From contig DOHC01000167.1 of assembly GCA_003535475.1 (NCBI GenBank), positions 1 to 7,361 of the forward strand: a DNA stretch of 7,361 bases, written 5' to 3'. Below are positions 1-7,121 of this stretch, in pieces. The translations under genes were made by a program, and so were the position numbers. The notes under the pieces are model-generated. The model ran no database searches. It had not been told where the DNA came from and was given only the letters and a program-made list of their open reading frames with translations. Numbering within the stretch: the first letter of the stretch is position 1; every line of letters begins with the position of its first letter. This stretch comes from Nitrospiraceae bacterium. GTDB taxonomy: Bacteria > Nitrospirota > Thermodesulfovibrionia > Thermodesulfovibrionales > UBA1546.

Positions 1-561
1 AGCCTTAATGCGCGTATCTCGGTGCTCTTTACAATACCATTGGGTTTTGCAACAGGGATGCTTGCCGCAACAATAGCAGTCGGAGGTTTCATAGGCGTTC
101 CTTCAATGATATATGTGCTCGGCGCGCCCAGCCTTATGGCATCTGCAACTGAACTTGTGATAGCATTTGTCATGGGACTCGGAGGTTCTTTCAAGTATGC
201 TATGAGCGGCCTTGTTGATATCCGTTTAGCAATGGTTATTCTCGCAGGCTCTTTATTCGGAATACAGCTTGGCGCAATCGGCACAACATATGTAAAGCCG
301 TTTATGATAAAGATGGTTATGGGCGTTATTATGGTCATCGTGCTTTTCAGCCGCGCGTTGATGGTACCTGTTTATCTCTCGCAGCTTGGGATTATCCAAA
401 CAATTAGTGAAGGCACTGTGAAGGTTTTGAAGACAACAAGTTTTGTCATAATGATATTGGCTCTTCTTATCGGAGCATTCATAGTATTGAAAGCCATGTG
501 GCAGGGGAGAAGGGCAGAGAAATTTCTCCATGCAGGAGGACTTGAACATGGGAAAGTATAA
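1..561 (+). CDS. TauE/SafE family membrane permease, C-terminal part (5' end outside window)
   Basis: The frame is open from base 1 and ends with TAA at 559-561, so the gene begins upstream; a GTG at 22 is only an internal codon. The visible 186 codons hold the second half of a TauE/SafE permease. A glycine-rich entry helix (GFATGMLAATIAVGG) is followed by a P-S-M...G-A-P-S-L stretch, an acidic/polar helix with TELVIAF, and an F-K-Y-A-M-S-G loop, the usual layout of the second repeat. Two more hydrophobic helices and a short basic tail (QGRRAEKF) follow. The family exports small sulfur or organic anions such as sulfite and sulfoacetate; the substrate cannot be read here. The longer C-terminus with an extra helix matches the longer members of the family. 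The last 14 nt overlap the downstream USP gene, suggesting co-transcription and coupled translation. The family call is firm and the substrate is unknown. Confidence 0.85.
   Translation, partial: SLNARISVLFTIPLGFATGMLAATIAVGGFIGVPSMIYVLGAPSLMASATELVIAFVMGLGGSFKYAMSGLVDIRLAMVILAGSLFGIQLGAIGTTYVKPFMIKMVMGVIMVIVLFSRALMVPVYLSQLGIIQTISEGTVKVLKTTSFVIMILALLIGAFIVLKAMWQGRRAEKFLHAGGLEHGKV
534..540 (+). promoter_or_regulatory. Ribosome binding site that fixes the first USP start
   Basis: AGGAGGA lies 7 nt before the ATG at 548. It lies inside the end of the TauE/SafE reading frame. It shows that translation starts at 548 rather than at the in-frame ATG at 530, which has no such site ahead of it and would put the ribosome binding site inside the gene. 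Confidence 0.85.
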
Positions 562-1402
562 AAAGATATTAGTTGCATTTGACGGCTCTGAATCAAGCAA
601 AAATGCACTTTTGCAGGCGTTCAGGCTCGCAAATGATGAGGAATGCTGGATAACCGTAGCATCTGTAATCCCTTCTTATGAAGGGGAGATGGAACTTGCG
701 GGCGTAAAGGATATAAGGGCAGCGCTCAGGAAACCATGCGATGATGCCCTTGCAGAGGCTGAGAGAATAGCAAAGGCAGAAAAGACGCTGATAAAAACTG
801 TCTGCGAAGAAGGTGAGATATACGAGAGGGTGGTGGACCTTGCGGATTCAGAAAACTGTGATGTTATTGTTATGGGGAGAAGGGGGCTGAGACGGCTTGA
901 AAGGGTTCTTGTAGGCAGTGTAACAGCGCGAGTTATAGGACACACAAAAAAAGATGTCCTTGTTGTGCCCAGAGGAACTACGGTTGGATGGAAGAATATC
1001 CTCCTTGCAACAGACGGTTCAAAACACAGCGAGATTGCGGCAAATAAAGCCATAGATTTTGCAAAATCATACGGCGGGAATCTGAAGGTCATATCTGTTG
1101 TGGATGTTCCATCTGAATTTTATGGCGAAGCCCCCGGTATTGTGGAAGACCTGATAAAAAAAGCTAAAACTTATGCTGAGAATGTGAAGAAACAGGCAGA
1201 GGCAGCAGGCATAAAGACAGAGACATTCATCAGGGAAGGAGAGGCTTATCAGGCAATAACTGACATTGCAAAAGAACAGAACATAAACACGATAGTTATG
1301 GGCTCTCACGGCAGGACAGGTCTGAAAAGGCTTCTCATGGGCAGTGTCACCGAAAAGGTCATCGGCTATTCTCCGTGCCCTGTGCTTGTTGTTAAAGCGT
1401 AA
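548..1402 (+). CDS. Tandem universal stress protein (two UspA domains)
   Basis: This is a 284-residue soluble cytoplasmic protein made of two UspA domains, roughly residues 5-141 and 148-283. Both keep the adenine-nucleotide-binding signature G-x2-G-x9-G-S: G110/G113/G123-S124 in the first domain and G252/G255/G265-S266 in the second. Both also keep the aspartate after the first strand (D12 in VAFDGSE, D156 in LATDGS). Two intact sites imply that it can bind ATP or a similar nucleotide in both halves, as ATP-type USPs do. The start at 548 is set by AGGAGGA at 534-540. The gene overlaps the TauE/SafE frame by 14 nt and is followed by a strong terminator, so the two form the end of one operon. 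A USP next to a permease is often read as a stress-linked regulator of transport, but nothing in the sequence gives a specific partner. The family call is secure. Confidence 0.95.
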   Translation: MGKYKKILVAFDGSESSKNALLQAFRLANDEECWITVASVIPSYEGEMELAGVKDIRAALRKPCDDALAEAERIAKAEKTLIKTVCEEGEIYERVVDLADSENCDVIVMGRRGLRRLERVLVGSVTARVIGHTKKDVLVVPRGTTVGWKNILLATDGSKHSEIAANKAIDFAKSYGGNLKVISVVDVPSEFYGEAPGIVEDLIKKAKTYAENVKKQAEAAGIKTETFIREGEAYQAITDIAKEQNINTIVMGSHGRTGLKRLLMGSVTEKVIGYSPCPVLVVKA

Positions 1403-1424
1403 TCTAAATACAGAGTGTTTTATT

Positions 1425-1456
1425 AAAAGCCCCTGAAAAACTTTCAGGGGCTTTTT
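1425..1456 (+). terminator. Strong intrinsic terminator after the TauE-USP operon
   Basis: A perfect 14-bp stem, AAAAGCCCCTGAAA at 1425-1438 against TTTCAGGGGCTTTT at 1442-1455, closes over a 3-nt loop and runs into a T tract (1452-1456). It begins 22 nt after the USP stop codon. The A-tract on the other side would let it act on the minus strand too. It separates the TauE-USP operon from everything downstream. Confidence 0.93.
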
Positions 1457-1496
1457 ATTTGTATTCCGGTTAAATTGTTTATACTATACACCTGAT

Positions 1497-1668
1497 ACGA
1501 GATATATTGTTACCTTTCTCATGCTTTTTTTGAACTGGATAGTATGGTCAGGCATGCTGGATGCCTTTCTTTCATCTTGCGCTTGGTGTTGTATCATGCA
1601 TGGTTGTAACTTATATGTCTCATGACATATTGTTTACCCGTGAAACTTTTTCTTATACACGGACATGA
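1497..1668 (+). pseudogene. mnhE: Mrp Na+/H+ antiporter subunit E (MnhE) remnant, frameshifted
   Basis: Two reading frames together spell the N-terminal part of an MnhE/MrpE subunit, a small membrane protein of the multisubunit Mrp cation/proton antiporter. Frame one (1497-1568) gives RYIVTFLMLFLNWIVW and then SGMLDAF. Frame two (1570-1665) resumes with FHLALGVVSCMVVTYMSHD and then ILFTRETFSYTRT before TGA at 1666-1668. The W-x-x-x-S-G-x-x-D-x-F-H-L-x-L-G core and the SHDLLF-like motif are typical of the family as I know it. The break is a tandem TTTC duplication at 1566-1573; removing one copy restores a continuous frame. The codon where a start would fit reads ACG (1497), possibly a decayed ATG. 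Family members are about 160 residues, so roughly two thirds is missing. A hint of continuation (TASISYI, frame of 1659, stop at 1728) may be a further shifted piece. The frameshift is seen directly; the family name is from memory of the motif. Confidence 0.75.
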
Positions 1669-1717
1669 CGGCATCTATAAGCTATATATCGACGGCAACT
1701 ATATATCGCCTGTATCG

Positions 1718-1726
1718 TGTTATGCT
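1718..1726 (+). promoter_or_regulatory. Candidate extended -10 promoter for the NhaD-USP cassette
   Basis: TG-T-TATGCT forms an extended -10 element about 65 nt ahead of the GTG start at 1792. I see no good -35 hexamer at the right distance. The strong terminator at 1425-1456 means the cassette needs its own promoter between 1457 and 1790, and this is one of the few candidates. A second, weak one is TATACT at 1480-1485, which might be the old promoter of the Mrp operon. The rest of 1669-1791 shows no gene I can support. Confidence 0.3.
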
Positions 1727-1791
1727 GTGATAAAGAGTCTTAGAGAGGAAATGATCCCGGATTAAAAAAACATTTAAGAGGAGATAAAAGA

Positions 1792-3225
1792 GTGAGTACG
1801 AATTTTGTGCGACTTGTACTTCTTATAATGACTACACTGTTACCTTTATCCTCTGCCTTTGCAGGCGGAGCAGACCATCCGAATATGGGAGAAACGCTGC
1901 CTTTGTATAGTGTAATACCATTTCTTGGAATGCTTTTGTCAATTGCCCTTTTCCCTTTGCTGGCTCCAAAATTCTGGCACCACCATTTTGGGAAGGTATC
2001 CGCATTCTGGGCAGTAGTTATAGTTGTCCCATTATTAATAAGTTATAAGGGACTTGCTGTCTATGAGATACTTCATATTGTGCTGGCAGACTATGTCCCT
2101 TTTATTATACTTCTTGGCTCCCTTTATACCGTATCAGGTGGTATTCTGCTTAGAGGGACATTGCGAGGCACGCCGATTGTTAACACTGCTATACTAACTA
2201 TAGGTACGCTGTTAGCCTCGTGGATGGGGACTACAGGAGCTGCTGTGCTCTTGATAAGGCCTTTTCTGAGGGCTAATGCGCACAGGAAAAACCGTACTTT
2301 TATGGTGGTATTCTTTATTTTTCTGATTGCCAATATCGGAGGCTCTCTCACTCCTTTGGGTGATCCGCCTTTGTTTTTAGGATTTCTGAGAGGTGTTCCT
2401 TTTTTCTGGACATTTAATCTCTTGCCACACATGGTAATTGCAGCAGGTATATTACTGGCAATGTATTTTGCTTTTGACACATATTTTTACAAAAAAGAAG
2501 GTATTACAGTTGCGCCTGATGATGGAACTAAAGAGCCCATAAGGCTTGAAGGCTCATATAACCTCATATTTCTGGCAGGCATAATTGGAGCTGTTCTGAT
2601 GAGCGGCATAGCAAAGTGGGGGGAGGTGTCTATTTTTGGTATTCACAGGGCAGTGCAGGATGCAGTGAGGGATGGATTGCTGATAGCAATGGCAGTGCTT
2701 TCTATGGTATTTACGCCGAAAACACTCAGGGAAGACAATGCATTTACATGGTTTCCTATTAAAGAGGTAGCAATCCTCTTTATAGGAATATTTATGGCAA
2801 TGATCCCTTGCCTGAAGATACTTCAGGCAGGTACAAAGGGAGAGCTTGCCTTTATCATAAATGCTGTAAGCGAACCTGTTCATTATTTCTGGATAACGGG
2901 AATATTGTCATCTTTTCTTGACAATGCCCCTACATACCTGACCTTTCTAAGCACGGCAATTGGTGGTTTTTATCCGGGAGTTGTTGAGTCTCAGGCAGTC
3001 TCTCTTTTAATAAAGGAAAACCCTCTTTATCTTGTTGCAATCTCGGCTGGAGCTGTATTTTTTGGGGCTGTGACTTATATCGGAAATGCGCCTAACTTTA
3101 TGGTGCGATCCATTGCTGAAGAAGCAGGCACGCCCATGCCAAGCTTTTTTGGGTATATGATAAAATATTCCTTAACTATACTGGTTCCTGTTTTTATATT
3201 AATAACGTTTGTTTTCTTTATTTAA
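1792..3225 (+). CDS. NhaD/ArsB-superfamily (CitMHS_2-like) sodium:proton antiporter or anion transporter
   Basis: A 477-residue integral membrane protein. It opens with a signal-like stretch ending SSAFA-GG near residue 24, then about 11-12 hydrophobic segments. Marker motifs are FPLLAPKFWHHHFGKVSAFW (54-73), SWMGTTGA (143-150), GGSLTPLGDPPLF (183-195), SFLDNAPTY (374-382) and YIGNAPNFMV (429-438). The paired T-x-x-G-D-P-P and D-N-A-P / G-N-A-P-N motifs in the two halves are those of the ion-transporter superfamily containing NhaD and ArsB. The opening resembles proteins usually annotated as sodium:proton antiporter or putative citrate transport (CitMHS_2). I favour cation/proton exchange because of the USP partner and the Mrp remnants around it, but sequence alone does not settle the substrate. 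The GTG start is set by AGAGGAGA at 1777-1784. The length fits a complete gene, and its stop lies 11 nt before the next gene, so the two form an operon. Confidence 0.87.
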   Translation: MSTNFVRLVLLIMTTLLPLSSAFAGGADHPNMGETLPLYSVIPFLGMLLSIALFPLLAPKFWHHHFGKVSAFWAVVIVVPLLISYKGLAVYEILHIVLADYVPFIILLGSLYTVSGGILLRGTLRGTPIVNTAILTIGTLLASWMGTTGAAVLLIRPFLRANAHRKNRTFMVVFFIFLIANIGGSLTPLGDPPLFLGFLRGVPFFWTFNLLPHMVIAAGILLAMYFAFDTYFYKKEGITVAPDDGTKEPIRLEGSYNLIFLAGIIGAVLMSGIAKWGEVSIFGIHRAVQDAVRDGLLIAMAVLSMVFTPKTLREDNAFTWFPIKEVAILFIGIFMAMIPCLKILQAGTKGELAFIINAVSEPVHYFWITGILSSFLDNAPTYLTFLSTAIGGFYPGVVESQAVSLLIKENPLYLVAISAGAVFFGAVTYIGNAPNFMVRSIAEEAGTPMPSFFGYMIKYSLTILVPVFILITFVFFI

Positions 3226-3236
3226 GGAGAAAAGAT

Positions 3237-4124
3237 ATGAAGATAGAAAAGATATTGTTTCCAACGAAATTCAGAGAGCTTGCTTTCAATTCCCTTGAAT
3301 CCCTGCTTGTGCTAAAGAAAGTTGGTCTTAAAGAGGTCGTACTTTATTATGTAATACCGAGAGAAGATGTTGGTTTTGTGCCTTACGGCGGATATCTTAA
3401 AGAGGAAGAGGAGAGACTAAGGGAAGAGGCAAGGATAAGATTTGAAGACTGGCAAAGTGCGCTATCTAAACAAGGGATTAAAAGTAAGATAATAGTGGAG
3501 GTTGGTGATCCTGTACCGAATATCCTGGCTGTTGCTGAAAAAGAACAGGTCAATCTAATCGTCGTTGGTAGAAAGAAAAGGAAGGGACCGGAATTGTCAT
3601 TTGTAGGATCGCATACGCTTCAGCTTATCGCTCGCAGTAAGTTTCCTACACTGGTCAGCAAATATATGGTCCAGTTTGAGTACAATGGTGAAAAAGTAAC
3701 GAGGGTGAATGATGACATATTCAAAAGACCCCTTTTGGCATCTGACTGGTCAGAGCCTTCTGCAAGGGCATTAGATTTGCTTAAATCCCTTAATGGTATT
3801 ATTGAAAAAGCATTTGTGTGTCATATTATTGGGGTTAAGATTTCGAAGGGATTGGACAAATCGGAGCTGTATCGTATAGAAAAAGAGAGTAAAGAAAGGC
3901 TTGAGGATTATTGCACTCGACTAAAATCAGAAGGCATTGTTGCAGAACCACATCTCGGAGCTGGGAGAACGCCTCTTGAGATCATACGTATTTCAAGGGA
4001 GATAGAAGCGAGCATGATCATTATGGGAACCACAGGAAAAGACCGTCTGCATGAGATATTTATGGGAAGCACTTCCCATCGGGTAGCTGAGATGTCAGAA
4101 TTGCCGACACTTTTAGTGCCCTAA
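3237..4124 (+). CDS. Tandem universal stress protein with a degenerate first domain
   Basis: A 295-residue cytoplasmic protein with two UspA-like domains, about residues 3-141 and 163-295. The second domain is canonical: D170 in LLASDWS, and G264-x2-G267-x9-G277-S278. The first is altered at the nucleotide site. The aspartate after strand one is replaced (FPTKF, K11), and the middle glycine of the motif is lysine (G111-R-K-K114, then G124-S125). Probably only the second half binds ATP, while the first has a structural or binding role. AAGGAGA at 3224-3230 overlaps the stop codon of the transporter and lies 7 nt before this ATG, so the gene is translated as the second member of the transporter operon. 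A USP tied to a cation transporter suggests control of transport or a stress response to ion load; this is inferred from context. Charged, Glu/Lys-rich helices such as KEEEERLREEARIRFED (55-71) are typical of long USPs. The reading frame continues without shift past its stop into the next remnant. Confidence 0.93.
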   Translation: MKIEKILFPTKFRELAFNSLESLLVLKKVGLKEVVLYYVIPREDVGFVPYGGYLKEEEERLREEARIRFEDWQSALSKQGIKSKIIVEVGDPVPNILAVAEKEQVNLIVVGRKKRKGPELSFVGSHTLQLIARSKFPTLVSKYMVQFEYNGEKVTRVNDDIFKRPLLASDWSEPSARALDLLKSLNGIIEKAFVCHIIGVKISKGLDKSELYRIEKESKERLEDYCTRLKSEGIVAEPHLGAGRTPLEIIRISREIEASMIIMGTTGKDRLHEIFMGSTSHRVAEMSELPTLLVP

Positions 4125-4658
4125 CAGAAAGCAATCGGAATAATTCCGGGCCCACTTTACAGCATCCTCCCATATCCTGTTGACTATGTGCCATACACAG
4201 CAGCCCATGTCATTGATCAACTCCAGATTCTCTTCTTCTCTGCGCTGGCATTTACTCTTCTCATGCTCTCTGGAATATATCCGGCAGAAATCAGGGCTAC
4301 AAATCTCGACACCGACTGGTTTTACAGAAAAGGCGCAAGGGCGTTTATGTGGCTTATAAACAATCCAATGGCAAGGTTAAGTGAAAGGATTAACAGGGCT
4401 GCCTTTGATATCCTTCTTTCTTCTTTGAGCCGGCTTAGCAAAAACCCTCTTTTTGTCCCGTCCTTGGCAATAACTTATGCCCGCCTGAAAATTGCAAAGG
4501 CATTCGGATTGAAAACGGCTTTTACAGGACTGGAGGCCAGACATAAGATTATAAAAGATTTGAGTGAGAGGGTTTATGACGAAGACATACAGAGAAGACC
4601 CATAGGCATCCCAGTGCTCATCTCCTTTATCTTTATATTCTTTTATGTTTTGATATAG
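4125..4658 (+). pseudogene. mnhD: C-terminal remnant of an Mrp antiporter D-type (proton-translocating) subunit
   Basis: An open frame of 177 codons plus stop starts at the codon after the USP stop (TAA 4122-4124) and stays in that same frame. It begins QKAIGIIPGPLYSILPY and continues PYTAAHVIDQLQILFF, a hydrophobic helix, then YPAEIRATNLDTDWFYRKG, a polar cytoplasmic region and a last helix (IPVLISFIFIFFYVLI). The HV-x-x-x-LQ-x-L-x-F segment and the LDTDWFYRK motif belong to the end of MnhD/MrpD-type subunits, relatives of NuoL/M/N that move protons. A whole subunit is about 500 residues or more, so the N-terminal two thirds, including most of the proton channel, is gone. The only early start (GTG 4188) has no ribosome binding site and falls inside the conserved block. 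I read it as a truncated relic, possibly still transcribed with the USP. A function as a short protein is unlikely. The MnhD label rests on recalled motifs; another member of the same antiporter-like family is possible. Confidence 0.72.
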
Positions 4659-4706
4659 ATATTGTTTTTGTCTGAGGCAGTGATTGCAATCAAAGATGCC
4701 AAATAA

Positions 4707-4865
4707 GGCACATCTGCAAACATCATTGTCGTGGGAATGTCTGAGAAAGCAGGCAAAAGGATATCGTTCATGAAGTTCATGGCATACGGAATGCCGATAA
4801 TGATCCTTACTGTTGTTATATCAACGGTGTATGTCTGGCTGAGATATTATGTGTTGAAGATATAA
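4707..4865 (+). pseudogene. C-terminal remnant of an ArsB/NhaD-type permease
   Basis: Fifty-two codons and a stop encode GTSANIIVVGMSEKAGKR, then ISFMKFMAYGMP, then a terminal helix (IMILTVVISTVYVWLRYYV) and the end LKI. The G-x-S-A-N-x-x-V-x-G-x-x-E-x-A-G block followed by a K-x-x-x-Y-G-x-P helix is the characteristic last segment of ArsB/NhaD-like permeases. It corresponds to the YIGNAPNF...AEEAG end of the transporter at 1792-3225 but belongs to another subfamily. The preceding codon in frame is TAA (4704-4706). Just before it, D-A-K could be a damaged version of the N-A-T-x-x-G run that normally leads into this block. No ribosome binding site or sensible start is seen. It is the tail of a lost gene of 400 residues or more. 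Confidence 0.72.
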
Positions 4866-4899
4866 TCCTGAGTAAAATTTTGTTTCACTGCTTTTTAAA

Positions 4900-4923
4900 A
4901 TAGGGGGCTAAAAACCTCCCTAT
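4900..4923. terminator. Probable bidirectional terminator
   Basis: ATAGGGGG at 4900-4907 pairs with CCTCCCTAT at 4915-4923 (eight pairs using one G-U, loop about 8 nt). On the plus strand it is followed by ATGTTTT, a weak T tract. On the minus strand it is followed at once by TTT and then AAAAA, so it lies correctly to end the zinc-ribbon gene (stop at 4964) as well as read-through from the left. The stem is short, so strength is uncertain. Confidence 0.55.
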
Positions 4924-4963
4924 ATGTTTTCACTGGACAAATTAATTTTTACGCTTCTCCGGC

Positions 4964-5110
4964 TTATTGCAGCACAAACTCATGTCCGCATTTCTTGCAG
5001 GTGACACTATCTCCTTTTTTCTTGTCAGTAAAATGCTGGACTTTTTTGCACCTCGGGCATTTCCTGTAAAAATTAAAGATATTCAGAAGGGCTGCTAAAT
5101 AATAAATCAT
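4964..5110 (-). CDS. Small zinc-ribbon protein (48 residues)
   Basis: Read on the minus strand, ATG at 5110-5108 opens a 48-codon frame ending in TAA (4966-4964). The protein has a hydrophobic N-terminus (MIYYLAALLNIFNFYR), then C18-P-R-C21, a basic linker (VQHFTDKKKGD), C38-K-K-C41-G-H-E-F and a short end. Two CxxC knuckles 16 residues apart make a classic zinc ribbon expected to hold one Zn2+. The G-H-E-F after the second knuckle is common in such small proteins. I do not recognise a named family, and the role (nucleic-acid binding, protein partner or metal handling) is unknown. No other in-frame start exists before an upstream stop. No ribosome binding site is visible, so the mRNA may be leaderless. 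It lies divergent from the CPA2 gene, 25 nt between start codons, with a palindrome over its start. The cysteine pattern is strong evidence that this short frame is real. Confidence 0.72.
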   Translation of the reverse strand: MIYYLAALLNIFNFYRKCPRCKKVQHFTDKKKGDSVTCKKCGHEFVLQ

Positions 5111-5120
5111 AATTTATGAT
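5106..5120. promoter_or_regulatory. Palindrome between divergent genes, possible operator or promoter core
   Basis: ATCATAA-T-TTATGAT is a perfect 7-bp inverted repeat around one base. It covers the start codon of the zinc-ribbon gene and lies 15 nt before the ATG of the CPA2 gene. It contains -10-like hexamers for both directions: TATGAT at 5115-5120 on plus and TATCAT at 5121-5116 on minus. TAAAAT at 5125-5130 is another plus-strand candidate. AT-rich palindromes can arise by chance. Confidence 0.4.
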
Positions 5121-5135
5121 AGCATAAAATTAACT

Positions 5136-7121
5136 ATGGAATCTGAATTTTTAAAATCTCTTGTTATAGTTTTAGGCGTATCTGCCTTAGTGGTATTCCT
5201 TCTTCACAGGCTGAAGATTCCGTCTATTGTCGGCTTTCTCGTTGCGGGCGCTATTATTGGCCCATATGGTATAGGAGTTTTAAAAGATGTCCATTCAATA
5301 GAGATAATGGCAGAGATTGGCGTGGTACTCCTTCTCTTTACGATTGGAATTGAGTTTTCCATGGCAAGGCTTATCAGGGTAAGAAAAGCAGTTATAGCAG
5401 GCGGTGGAATTCAGGTGTTGCTCACGATAGCTTTATCTGCTGCGGCTGCCTATCTTCTGACCGGAAATGCAAACAGGTCTGTTTTTTTTGGTTTTCTAAT
5501 AGCCTTAAGCAGCACTGCAATTGTTTTAAAGATGCTTGAAGAGAAAGGCGAAACCGACTCTCCGCATGGCCGCATAATGGTCGGCATACTGATTTTTCAG
5601 GACCTTTGTGTTGTGCCCCTTATGCTCTTAATCCCTGCTCTTTCAGGAGATGCGATAAATATGATAGATGCGCTGATAAAGATGGGAGAAGCGGCGCTGA
5701 TTATAACAATTATGCTGTTAAGTGCGAGGTGGATTGTCCCGGGATTACTGCATCAGGTTGTACGTACAAGGAGCCGTGAATTATTCATAACAACGATAAT
5801 ATTTCTCTGTTTCGGGATTGCTTTTCTAACCTCAAAATTCGGACTTTCACTTGCACTTGGCGCATTTTTAGCAGGGCTGATAATATCAGAATCAGAATAT
5901 TCGCATCAGGCAACCTCAGACATCCTGCCGTTCAAGGACAGTTTTATAGGCATGTTTTTTGTTTCAATCGGGATGTTGATGGATATAGGGTATATGTCTG
6001 ATAATTGTCTAAAGATTGCAGCTGCTGTTGCATTGATATTCGGGCTAAAGATAATTACAGGCATAATATCTGCTCTTTCAATAGGGAGCCCTCTGAGAAC
6101 CTCAATTCATGCAGGACTTGGGATTGCCCAGATTGGAGAATTTTCTTTTGTGCTTGCCATTGCAGGAAAGGCCTCAGGGCTTATAACAGAGAATTTTTAT
6201 CAGATATTTCTCTCCTCCTCAGTCGTAACAATGATAATGACACCCTTTGTCCTTAAGTCAGCGCCTTTTGTCTCAGGATGGATAGCATCAAGACATCTTT
6301 TAAAGAGGATAGTCAGCCTTAAGAGAGTTTCTGAAGGGGAGGGTTTCCCGAGGAGGAGACACGATCATGTGATAATTATCGGTTTTGGTCTTAATGGAAG
6401 AAATCTCGCAAAAGTTCTGAAGGAGGCAGATATACCCTATGTGGTGCTCGAGATGAACAGCGATACAGTGCGTGAGATGAAGAAGAGGGGAGAGCCGATA
6501 TACTACGGGGACGGCACGAGCAAGGAGATACTCCATAAGATTGGCATAGATAAGGCAAGACTGCTTGTCATTGCAATATCGGACCCTGTCTCCACAAGAA
6601 GAATAGTATCGATTGCAAGGCATGAAAATTCTGATATTTATATCATTGTAAGGACAAGATACCTTGCGGAAGTGGATGAACTCAGGGAACTCGGCGCAGA
6701 TGAGGTAATACCGGAAGAATTTGAAACATCAATAGAGCTATTCTCACGTGTGCTGCACAGGTATAATTTCCCCGGGAATATAATTGCGGACATGATAGAT
6801 AAAATCAGAAGCGGCAGTTATACGGCATTGAGAAGCATGGAATTGCCGAAGCGGCATCTTTTTGAAAAATGTGAATGGCTTCCGGATATAGAAATAGAGG
6901 GGTTTAGAGTCTCAGAAAATTTACATCTTGTGGGCAAGAGCATAGCAGAGCTTCAGGTAAGGAAAAAAACAGGGGTAACAATTATAGCTGTAAGGAGAAG
7001 CCATGAAGTTTTTACAAATCCAGCGCCTGATTTTAGATTTAGGGGAGGAGATATAATATTATTTACAGGTGAAAGAAAGAATATGATGAAGGCATTGGAT
7101 TATTTCAAAGGAGAAGCATAA
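5136..7121 (+). CDS. KefB-type CPA2 cation:proton antiporter with TrkA-N and TrkA-C domains
   Basis: A complete 661-residue inner-membrane antiporter. Residues 1-385 form the Na+/H+ exchanger domain, about 12-13 helices. It carries VGFLVAGAIIGPYGIG (32-47), ALSSTAIVLKMLEEKGE (123-139), the ion-site motif IFQD (153-156), LALGAFLAGLIIS (239-251) and the conserved GIAQIGEFSFVLA (329-341). The Q-D pair, rather than D-D or N-D, is what K+-type CPA2 antiporters such as KefB/KefC carry, so K+/H+ exchange is the best guess. Residues 410-540 are a TrkA-N (KTN) Rossmann domain with G416-F-G-L-N-G421, an acid at the end of strand two (E439) and GDGT (458-461), which binds NAD(H)-type nucleotides. Residues about 582-655 are a TrkA-C domain, a ligand-binding regulatory module absent from E. 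coli KefB and KefC. ATG 5136 fits the family start, but no ribosome binding site precedes it. The gene stands alone, divergent from the zinc-ribbon gene, and its stop lies inside a hairpin. Confidence 0.93.
   Translation: MESEFLKSLVIVLGVSALVVFLLHRLKIPSIVGFLVAGAIIGPYGIGVLKDVHSIEIMAEIGVVLLLFTIGIEFSMARLIRVRKAVIAGGGIQVLLTIALSAAAAYLLTGNANRSVFFGFLIALSSTAIVLKMLEEKGETDSPHGRIMVGILIFQDLCVVPLMLLIPALSGDAINMIDALIKMGEAALIITIMLLSARWIVPGLLHQVVRTRSRELFITTIIFLCFGIAFLTSKFGLSLALGAFLAGLIISESEYSHQATSDILPFKDSFIGMFFVSIGMLMDIGYMSDNCLKIAAAVALIFGLKIITGIISALSIGSPLRTSIHAGLGIAQIGEFSFVLAIAGKASGLITENFYQIFLSSSVVTMIMTPFVLKSAPFVSGWIASRHLLKRIVSLKRVSEGEGFPRRRHDHVIIIGFGLNGRNLAKVLKEADIPYVVLEMNSDTVREMKKRGEPIYYGDGTSKEILHKIGIDKARLLVIAISDPVSTRRIVSIARHENSDIYIIVRTRYLAEVDELRELGADEVIPEEFETSIELFSRVLHRYNFPGNIIADMIDKIRSGSYTALRSMELPKRHLFEKCEWLPDIEIEGFRVSENLHLVGKSIAELQVRKKTGVTIIAVRRSHEVFTNPAPDFRFRGGDIILFTGERKNMMKALDYFKGEA

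Follow-up and report, generated by a model that had tools for sequence, protein, structure and literature searches.

Organization of the locus

The window analyzed here is a whole contig of 7361 bases (DOHC01000167.1; C148 of source genome G000) of a Nitrospiraceae bacterium, in which an intact transporter gene and an adjacent gene for a universal stress protein (USP) lie between fragments of an operon for an Mrp (Mnh) Na+/H+ antiporter. Mrp antiporters are complexes encoded by several genes that serve to balance Na+ and pH. The genes are arranged in the order TauE (cut)-USP1-mnhE'-LCIB'-permease-USP2-mrpD'-PermA'-zinc ribbon (minus strand)-Kef, with primes marking the fragments. The source genome is 66% complete and consists of 322 contigs, and the wider reading of the locus, by comparison with relatives (G001 and onward), rests on draft genomes.

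Remnants of an Mrp operon

The left remnant (1497–1657, plus strand) comprises approximately 53 codons and was recognized by tblastn, DNA alignment and shuffled controls. The MnhE protein of G001 aligned with the window at 1500–1583 (expectation value, E, 1.8e-9) and at 1570–1656 (E 1.5e-7), in two frames owing to a 4-nucleotide (nt) frameshift with an extra CTTT near 1569. The two pieces share 18/23 and 21/29 residues with MnhE of the same-genus genome G005, which matches PF01899 above cut-off, and the DNA alignment places ACG at 1497 where relatives read ATG. Judged by these alignments, the interval is the start of mnhE in a degraded state. A PF01899-type mnhE is present in 8 of 61 relatives, within the genus only in G001 and G005, and no PF01899 match was found in the window's own, incomplete genome.

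The right remnant (4134–4658, plus strand) consists of 174 open codons from the 3' end of mrpD, the 5' part being gone. Positions 4134–4655 align with residues 433–599 of the 606-amino acid MrpD of G001 (E 2e-47), and the NCBIfam model NF009310 (antiporter subunit D) matches over profile positions 429–532 of 584 (E 5e-22), with a score of 78.4 bits that is below the full-length cut-off of 564, as expected of a fragment. A check of the two remnants against PF01899 and PF00361, put forward with an earlier, sequence-only reading of this DNA, proved uninformative: neither has a Pfam match, the mnhE pieces are only 23 and 29 amino acids long, and the PF00361 core is absent from the mrpD remnant because this domain ends at residue 387 in G001 whereas the remnant starts at about residue 433.

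To control for chance, 11 proteins (E, D, the older permease described below, LCIB, CBS, F, G, B, C and two other D) were compared with 100 shuffles per interval. The real scores exceeded the shuffle maxima for E (47 vs. 19.2 bits), D (178 vs. 22.7 bits), the tail of the older permease (94 vs. 23.9 bits) and the LCIB tail (32 vs. 18.5 bits), and CBS, F, G, B, C and the two other D did not score above shuffles in either remnant interval. The MnhE-like 5' piece on the left and the MnhD-like 3' piece on the right, which the sequence-only reading had placed in this order on the plus strand, are both confirmed. No working Mrp operon is present here: mnhE lacks its ATG and is frameshifted and no further Mrp piece rose above shuffles in the two intervals. 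PF00361 matches elsewhere in the window's genome are confined to C31 (three) and C150 (one), whose gene neighborhoods suggest complex I and a hydrogenase-like cluster; a further Mrp-type D was not detected in the 66% of the genome that is available.

When the D piece was compared with the 61 genomes, 14 matched, including the window's own. Elsewhere the open frames measure 554–637 amino acids, the shortest of which reaches a contig end, and among these 61 the window's genome holds the sole truncated copy. A protein known from other assemblies, P0001 (161 amino acids, 92% identity, five member sequences on 8 contigs, sources lgn and ena), has its first residue in common with the truncated D open reading frame (ORF) of the window, so that relatives elsewhere probably carry the same truncation. 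An assembly chimera, in which mnhE', permease-USP2 and mrpD' come from the loci of different strains and do not occur together in any cell, would suit the fragmented source genome and the differing nearest relatives of the flank genes; it is nonetheless highly improbable, given the common start in P0001, which is known from protein alone, the D frames of 554–637 amino acids in the other matching genomes, and a 97% identical relative of the permease on a separate contig (P0069). We also considered that the mrpD remnant is still functional, as a 156-amino acid ORF with a GTG start at 4188 whose product would be a membrane fragment serving permease-USP2. The open frame and the start shared with P0001 speak for this, but the antiporter core domain is missing and the ORF ends five residues before P0001, which makes it very unlikely. 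Synonymous divergence (dS) from relatives was saturated or not computable over the remnant and gave no verdict on constraint.

The intact permease and USP2

Between the remnants lie a permease gene of the CitMHS_2 type (1792–3225, plus strand, 477 amino acids) and a gene for a tandem universal stress protein, USP2 (3237–4124, plus strand), both intact. The permease matches PF16980 with 600.6 bits (cut-off 25.7) over model positions 2–448 of 448, and weakly PF03600 (39.5 bits); USP2 matches PF00582 above cut-off (117.2 bits). The sequence-only reading was correct in seeing an intact transporter with its USP at this place, whereas its assignment of the transporter to NhaD is not supported. The window permease and two homologues gave no NCBIfam match at E ≤ 10, neither to TIGR00775 nor to NF038006, whereas PermB, a different permease at the same place in G004, passes NF038006 (162.8 vs. 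80 bits) and reaches 375 bits with TIGR00775, below the cut-off of 577. Source names of the permease's relatives are sodium:proton antiporter or NhaD/arsenite permease-like. Profile comparison gave probabilities of 27.5% against PermB and 47.4% against PermA, the older permease, which are weak values from shallow alignments. Structure prediction from an 18-row alignment had a mean predicted local distance difference test score (pLDDT) of 52.8, too poor for a fold search, and sequence searches of the PDB returned no relevant relative. The permease is predicted to exchange Na+ for H+, or to move an anion with Na+, and could in either way substitute for the lost Mrp complex; USP2 may be its nucleotide-binding regulatory partner, a guess from the family.

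The permease occurs in one of 16 genomes of the family and in 20 of 176 of the order, where its best match (83%) belongs to another family; the nearest named protein is that of Nitrospira bacterium HGW-Nitrospira-1 (83%). Because of this scattered distribution and the placement of the best match, the permease-USP2 pair was likely acquired from another lineage, repeated loss being possible. We collected 101 permease loci, 80 of them the best of 571 found and some representing the same genome in two collections. A USP2-like gene lies directly 3' of the permease in 45 of the 95 testable loci (those with a complete permease and 900 nt or more beyond it), a count that includes duplicates, so that independent cases are fewer. 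Five loci of Desulfobacteraceae-type genomes (L098, L101, L109, L122, and L139; Desulfobacula, Desulfospira, and others) combine the same permease and a USP2-like gene (37–40%) with an mnhE-F-G-B cluster within about 10 kb.

Further gene remnants

Two more gene fragments, beyond what the sequence-only reading had described, lie beside the Mrp remnants. Downstream of mrpD', positions 4707–4865 (plus strand) hold the final 52 codons of a permease of the CitMHS type, termed PermA (DNA score 201, shuffle maximum 29). The tail is 83% identical at the amino acid level to PermA of G002 and 90% to that of G006, and its CitMHS Pfam match is below cut-off (E 0.0068). Similar 3' scars of PermA were found in G001 after the last D (33 nt; 51, shuffle maximum 28) and in G003 after the gene of a CPA2-like antiporter (56 nt; 57, shuffle maximum 25). 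The recurrence of these scars fits a role of PermA as an early occupant that would have been overwritten more than once.

On the left side, the 3' tail of a gene for an LCIB-type carbonic anhydrase (1655–1765, start approximate, plus strand) was assigned from sequence similarity and the junction DNA. It shows 57% identity over 21 amino acids at 1691–1753 to a PF18599 protein of G045 (local score 71, maximum 41 in 500 shuffles), and the interval is matched by six of nine LCIB proteins at E ≤ 1 (best 6e-5); with only 36 amino acids, the tail has no Pfam match to PF18599. The mnhE remnant and the LCIB tail meet at a common ATA, as would be expected of end-joining at a short match, judging from this one junction. 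A broken LCIB-type gene also lies between USP1 and mnhE on C5 of G001 (L160, 6645–6943), and LCIB is in pieces in G008 and cut by the contig end in G013.

The LCIB stop (1765) is 26 nt upstream of the permease start, which raises the alternative that the tail arrived together with the permease, the cassette being the distal end of an LCIB-permease-USP operon of the donor. G023 has this gene order, with a different permease. Conversely, none of the 101 loci of the window's permease contains LCIB, and an LCIB fragment is resident at the same place in G001. We regard this alternative as a serious but tentative one, to which we would give somewhat less than an even chance.

Flanking genes and search for mobile elements

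At its left end, the window starts within a TauE/SafE permease gene, of which the C-terminal part remains (1–561, plus strand; PF01925, 55.2 bits; 97% amino acid identity to G007, 90% to G001). It is followed by USP1, a tandem universal stress protein gene (530–1402, plus strand; PF00582, 237.2 bits, above cut-off), with an orthologue of at least 65% amino acid identity in six of the seven other same-genus genomes, G005 being without one. A second TauE-like/USP cluster of the window's genome (L164, G000:C241, 414–1265) carries a USP1 paralogue at 56%. Behind USP1 lies a hairpin resembling an intrinsic terminator (1425–1455, plus strand), a 14-pair stem identified by consensus match only, and the first 60 nt or so of the spacer are common to G006, G007 and G003. 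On the right side, a small zinc-ribbon ORF of 48 amino acids (4964–5110, minus strand), identified by similarity, precedes a gene for a Kef-type antiporter with TrkA domains (5136–7121, plus strand; PF00999, PF02254, and PF02080), which is 94% identical in amino acids to that of G001 and 86–87% to those of G002, G003 and G004. The zinc-ribbon ORF recurs at 56–60% amino acid identity in G001, G002, G003, G004 and G010, upstream of Kef where the contig permits.

No sign of insertion by a mobile element was found. A Pfam scan of nine ORFs of the window gave no integrase or transposase, repeats within 1380–5140 did not exceed 22 nt, and there was no transfer RNA (tRNA) or other RNA family above gathering in the window (Rfam, E ≤ 1; three matches, all below gathering). 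Scanning ten related loci with Rfam yielded two tRNAs 3' of USP2 in L060 and nothing more. Promoter-like sites within 1380–5140 were not more frequent than in shuffles (10 vs. a mean of 9.7).

The same place in relatives

USP1 is present in seven same-genus genomes, including the window's, and is followed by five types of module: Mrp genes with LCIB pieces in G001, CBS and PermA (G002 and G006), a CPA2-like antiporter with PF00999 (G003 and G007), PermB in G004, and CitMHS_2 with USP2 in the window. In G002, a single contig reads USP1-CBS-PermA-zinc ribbon-Kef. Conserved flanks with different contents are further seen on the Kef side in G010, a member of the family with LCIB-PermB at this position, on the USP1 side in G003, G006 and G007, and on two contigs each in G001 and G004; in the latter, one contig has the zinc ribbon close to its end and another has Kef close to its start. 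Some genomes thus show the slot clearly, whereas in others it is rearranged.

A relative in which TauE-USP is followed by a whole mnhEFG...D operon, anticipated in the sequence-only reading, is found in part. On C5 of G001, TauE-USP1 and the LCIB pieces precede genes E (PF01899), F (PF04066), G (PF03334), B (PF04039), C (PF00420) and two D genes (PF00361); a third D begins there and is cut by the contig end. On C2 of the same genome, B at the contig end is followed by C, three D, the PermA scar, the zinc ribbon and Kef (of these, C and two D genes were tested with Pfam). The N-terminal halves of the third D are 49% identical between the contigs, and G001 therefore has two Mrp operons. In G022, mnhE comes first and D last according to ORF reading, with only E and the last D tested.

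In G005, the first 117 or so and the last 90 or so residues of Kef remain, with opposite-strand frames between them (L166, G005:C223, 4544–7534), which has the look of a further replacement in place that left scars. Elsewhere in the order (L203, L205, L208, and L209), a group GntR-CBS-DASS-LCIB-(CBS)-permease recurs, with PermA or PermB (CitMHS or NhaD_1-type) as the last gene; GntR was assigned by reading, one DASS and one LCIB by Pfam, and the rest by similarity. This group could be an operon for Na+-linked uptake of inorganic carbon or anions.

Proposed history of the slot

We propose that 1497–4865 is a transporter slot in which the permease-USP2 pair (1792–4124) replaced an Mrp operon, which in turn had replaced the older CitMHS permease, and consider this reading very probable. 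Direct observation covers the remnants, the order and strand in which they lie, the permease and USP as an intact pair, and the presence of other transporters next to these flanks in sister genomes; the direction PermA, then Mrp, then permease-USP2 is inferred. The claim that an Mrp complex gave way to a one-protein system stands insofar as the remnants correspond to either end of such an operon at this place, and needs amending in that Mrp was probably not the first occupant, as indicated by the PermA and LCIB tails. New modules may have entered when TauE-USP1 and Kef, the flanks, underwent homologous recombination, while short matches further in served for end-joining.

The flank genes were compared with a core gene, that of a 640-amino acid PF00361 protein on C31 read as NuoL; a single core gene is a thin yardstick. 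NuoL of the window's genome is 91% identical in nucleotides to each of G001, G006 and G007, whereas USP1 is 90% identical to that of G007, 70% to G001 and 74% to G006, and the USP1 genes of G001, G002 and G004 are 89–91% alike. Kef of the window is 93% identical in nucleotides to that of G001, and the Kef genes of G002, G003 and G004 are 92–93% identical to one another, whereas their NuoL differ by 13–17%. As the flank alleles disagree with NuoL, exchange through the flanks is likely.

A different course of events would be a plain internal deletion from mnhE to mrpD, followed later by insertion of permease-USP2, without selected replacement. The loss of the ATG and the frameshift in mnhE may mean that this remnant has long been decaying, and the LCIB tail that separates it from the permease suggests that the left side was altered more than once. 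On the other hand, the mrpD remnant has kept its 174 open codons and starts 9 nt past the USP2 stop, which fits a recent single join, and the four other module types after USP1 in sister genomes are hard to explain by unrelated insertions. We consider this course unlikely, while granting it a substantial minority share of the probability.

Several observations weigh against the proposed succession. The Mrp genes of G001 are split over two contigs, so that Mrp between USP1 and Kef is unseen on a single contig, and the mrpD remnant is nearer to P0003 (75% identity) and D of G005 (63%) than to D of G001 (56%). In G005, mnhE is located elsewhere, downstream of CBS and a DASS-type gene. The flanks vary as well: Kef of G003 lies in another neighborhood, and G006 and G007 yielded no Kef orthologue. 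A PermA scar was not found in G004, G005 or G007. The LCIB tail is downstream of the mnhE remnant in the window and the LCIB fragment upstream of mnhE in G001; a simple nested history therefore does not hold for every layer, and the order on the left side is ambiguous. LCIB is absent from all 101 collected permease loci, several of which, however, offer little upstream sequence. A foreign origin of the cassette is not marked by GC content (permease 41.8%, USP2 41.4%, Kef 41.9%, and USP1 45.7%). The permease fails both NhaD models, so that its functional equivalence to Mrp is putative, and an Mrp operon may be present in the remaining part of the window's genome.

More generally, the interval between TauE-USP1 and Kef might be a dedicated exchange slot for cation and anion transporters (the Mrp complex, an NhaD_1-type permease, a CBS-CitMHS permease, a CPA2-like antiporter, and a CitMHS_2 permease with USP), swapped by recombination in the flanks and often leaving a short scar. 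We judge the chances of this extension to be nearly balanced, leaning slightly toward doubt. The core Mrp claim holds, and a slot with several transporter types and scars would appear more interesting still.

Comparison with known systems

The locus would allow testing whether unrelated transport systems substitute for each other, and would show how ion-coupling strategies shift between close relatives. If the exchange slot is real, one locus would preserve, like a fossil record that can still be read, the ion economies that followed one another. It also calls for caution, as a short ORF that carries the annotation antiporter subunit D can be the scar of an operon.

In listings and abstract openings of open-licence papers, we found no description of another antiporter taking the place of an Mrp operon at its own locus. 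In a Coxiella-like endosymbiont, an Mrp antiporter was lost through pseudogene formation (PMC8290121); unlike the window, the relevant passage describes loss alone, with no mention of replacement at the same locus. With NhaD (TIGR00775 and NF038006) the window permease has in common the names of its relatives and the weak PF03600 match, and it differs in matching neither model. With Mrp/Mnh operons the locus shares mnhE at one end and mrpD at the other, as on C5 of G001, and it differs in keeping the two end fragments only, F, G, B, C and the other D having left no trace above shuffles.

In situ (xenologous or non-orthologous) gene displacement in operons is a known concept. The locus resembles it in that a resident gene set has been exchanged at the same chromosomal place between conserved neighbors; it differs in that a multi-gene complex would have given way to an unrelated single-gene transporter with a USP, and in that scars of the former occupants are kept.

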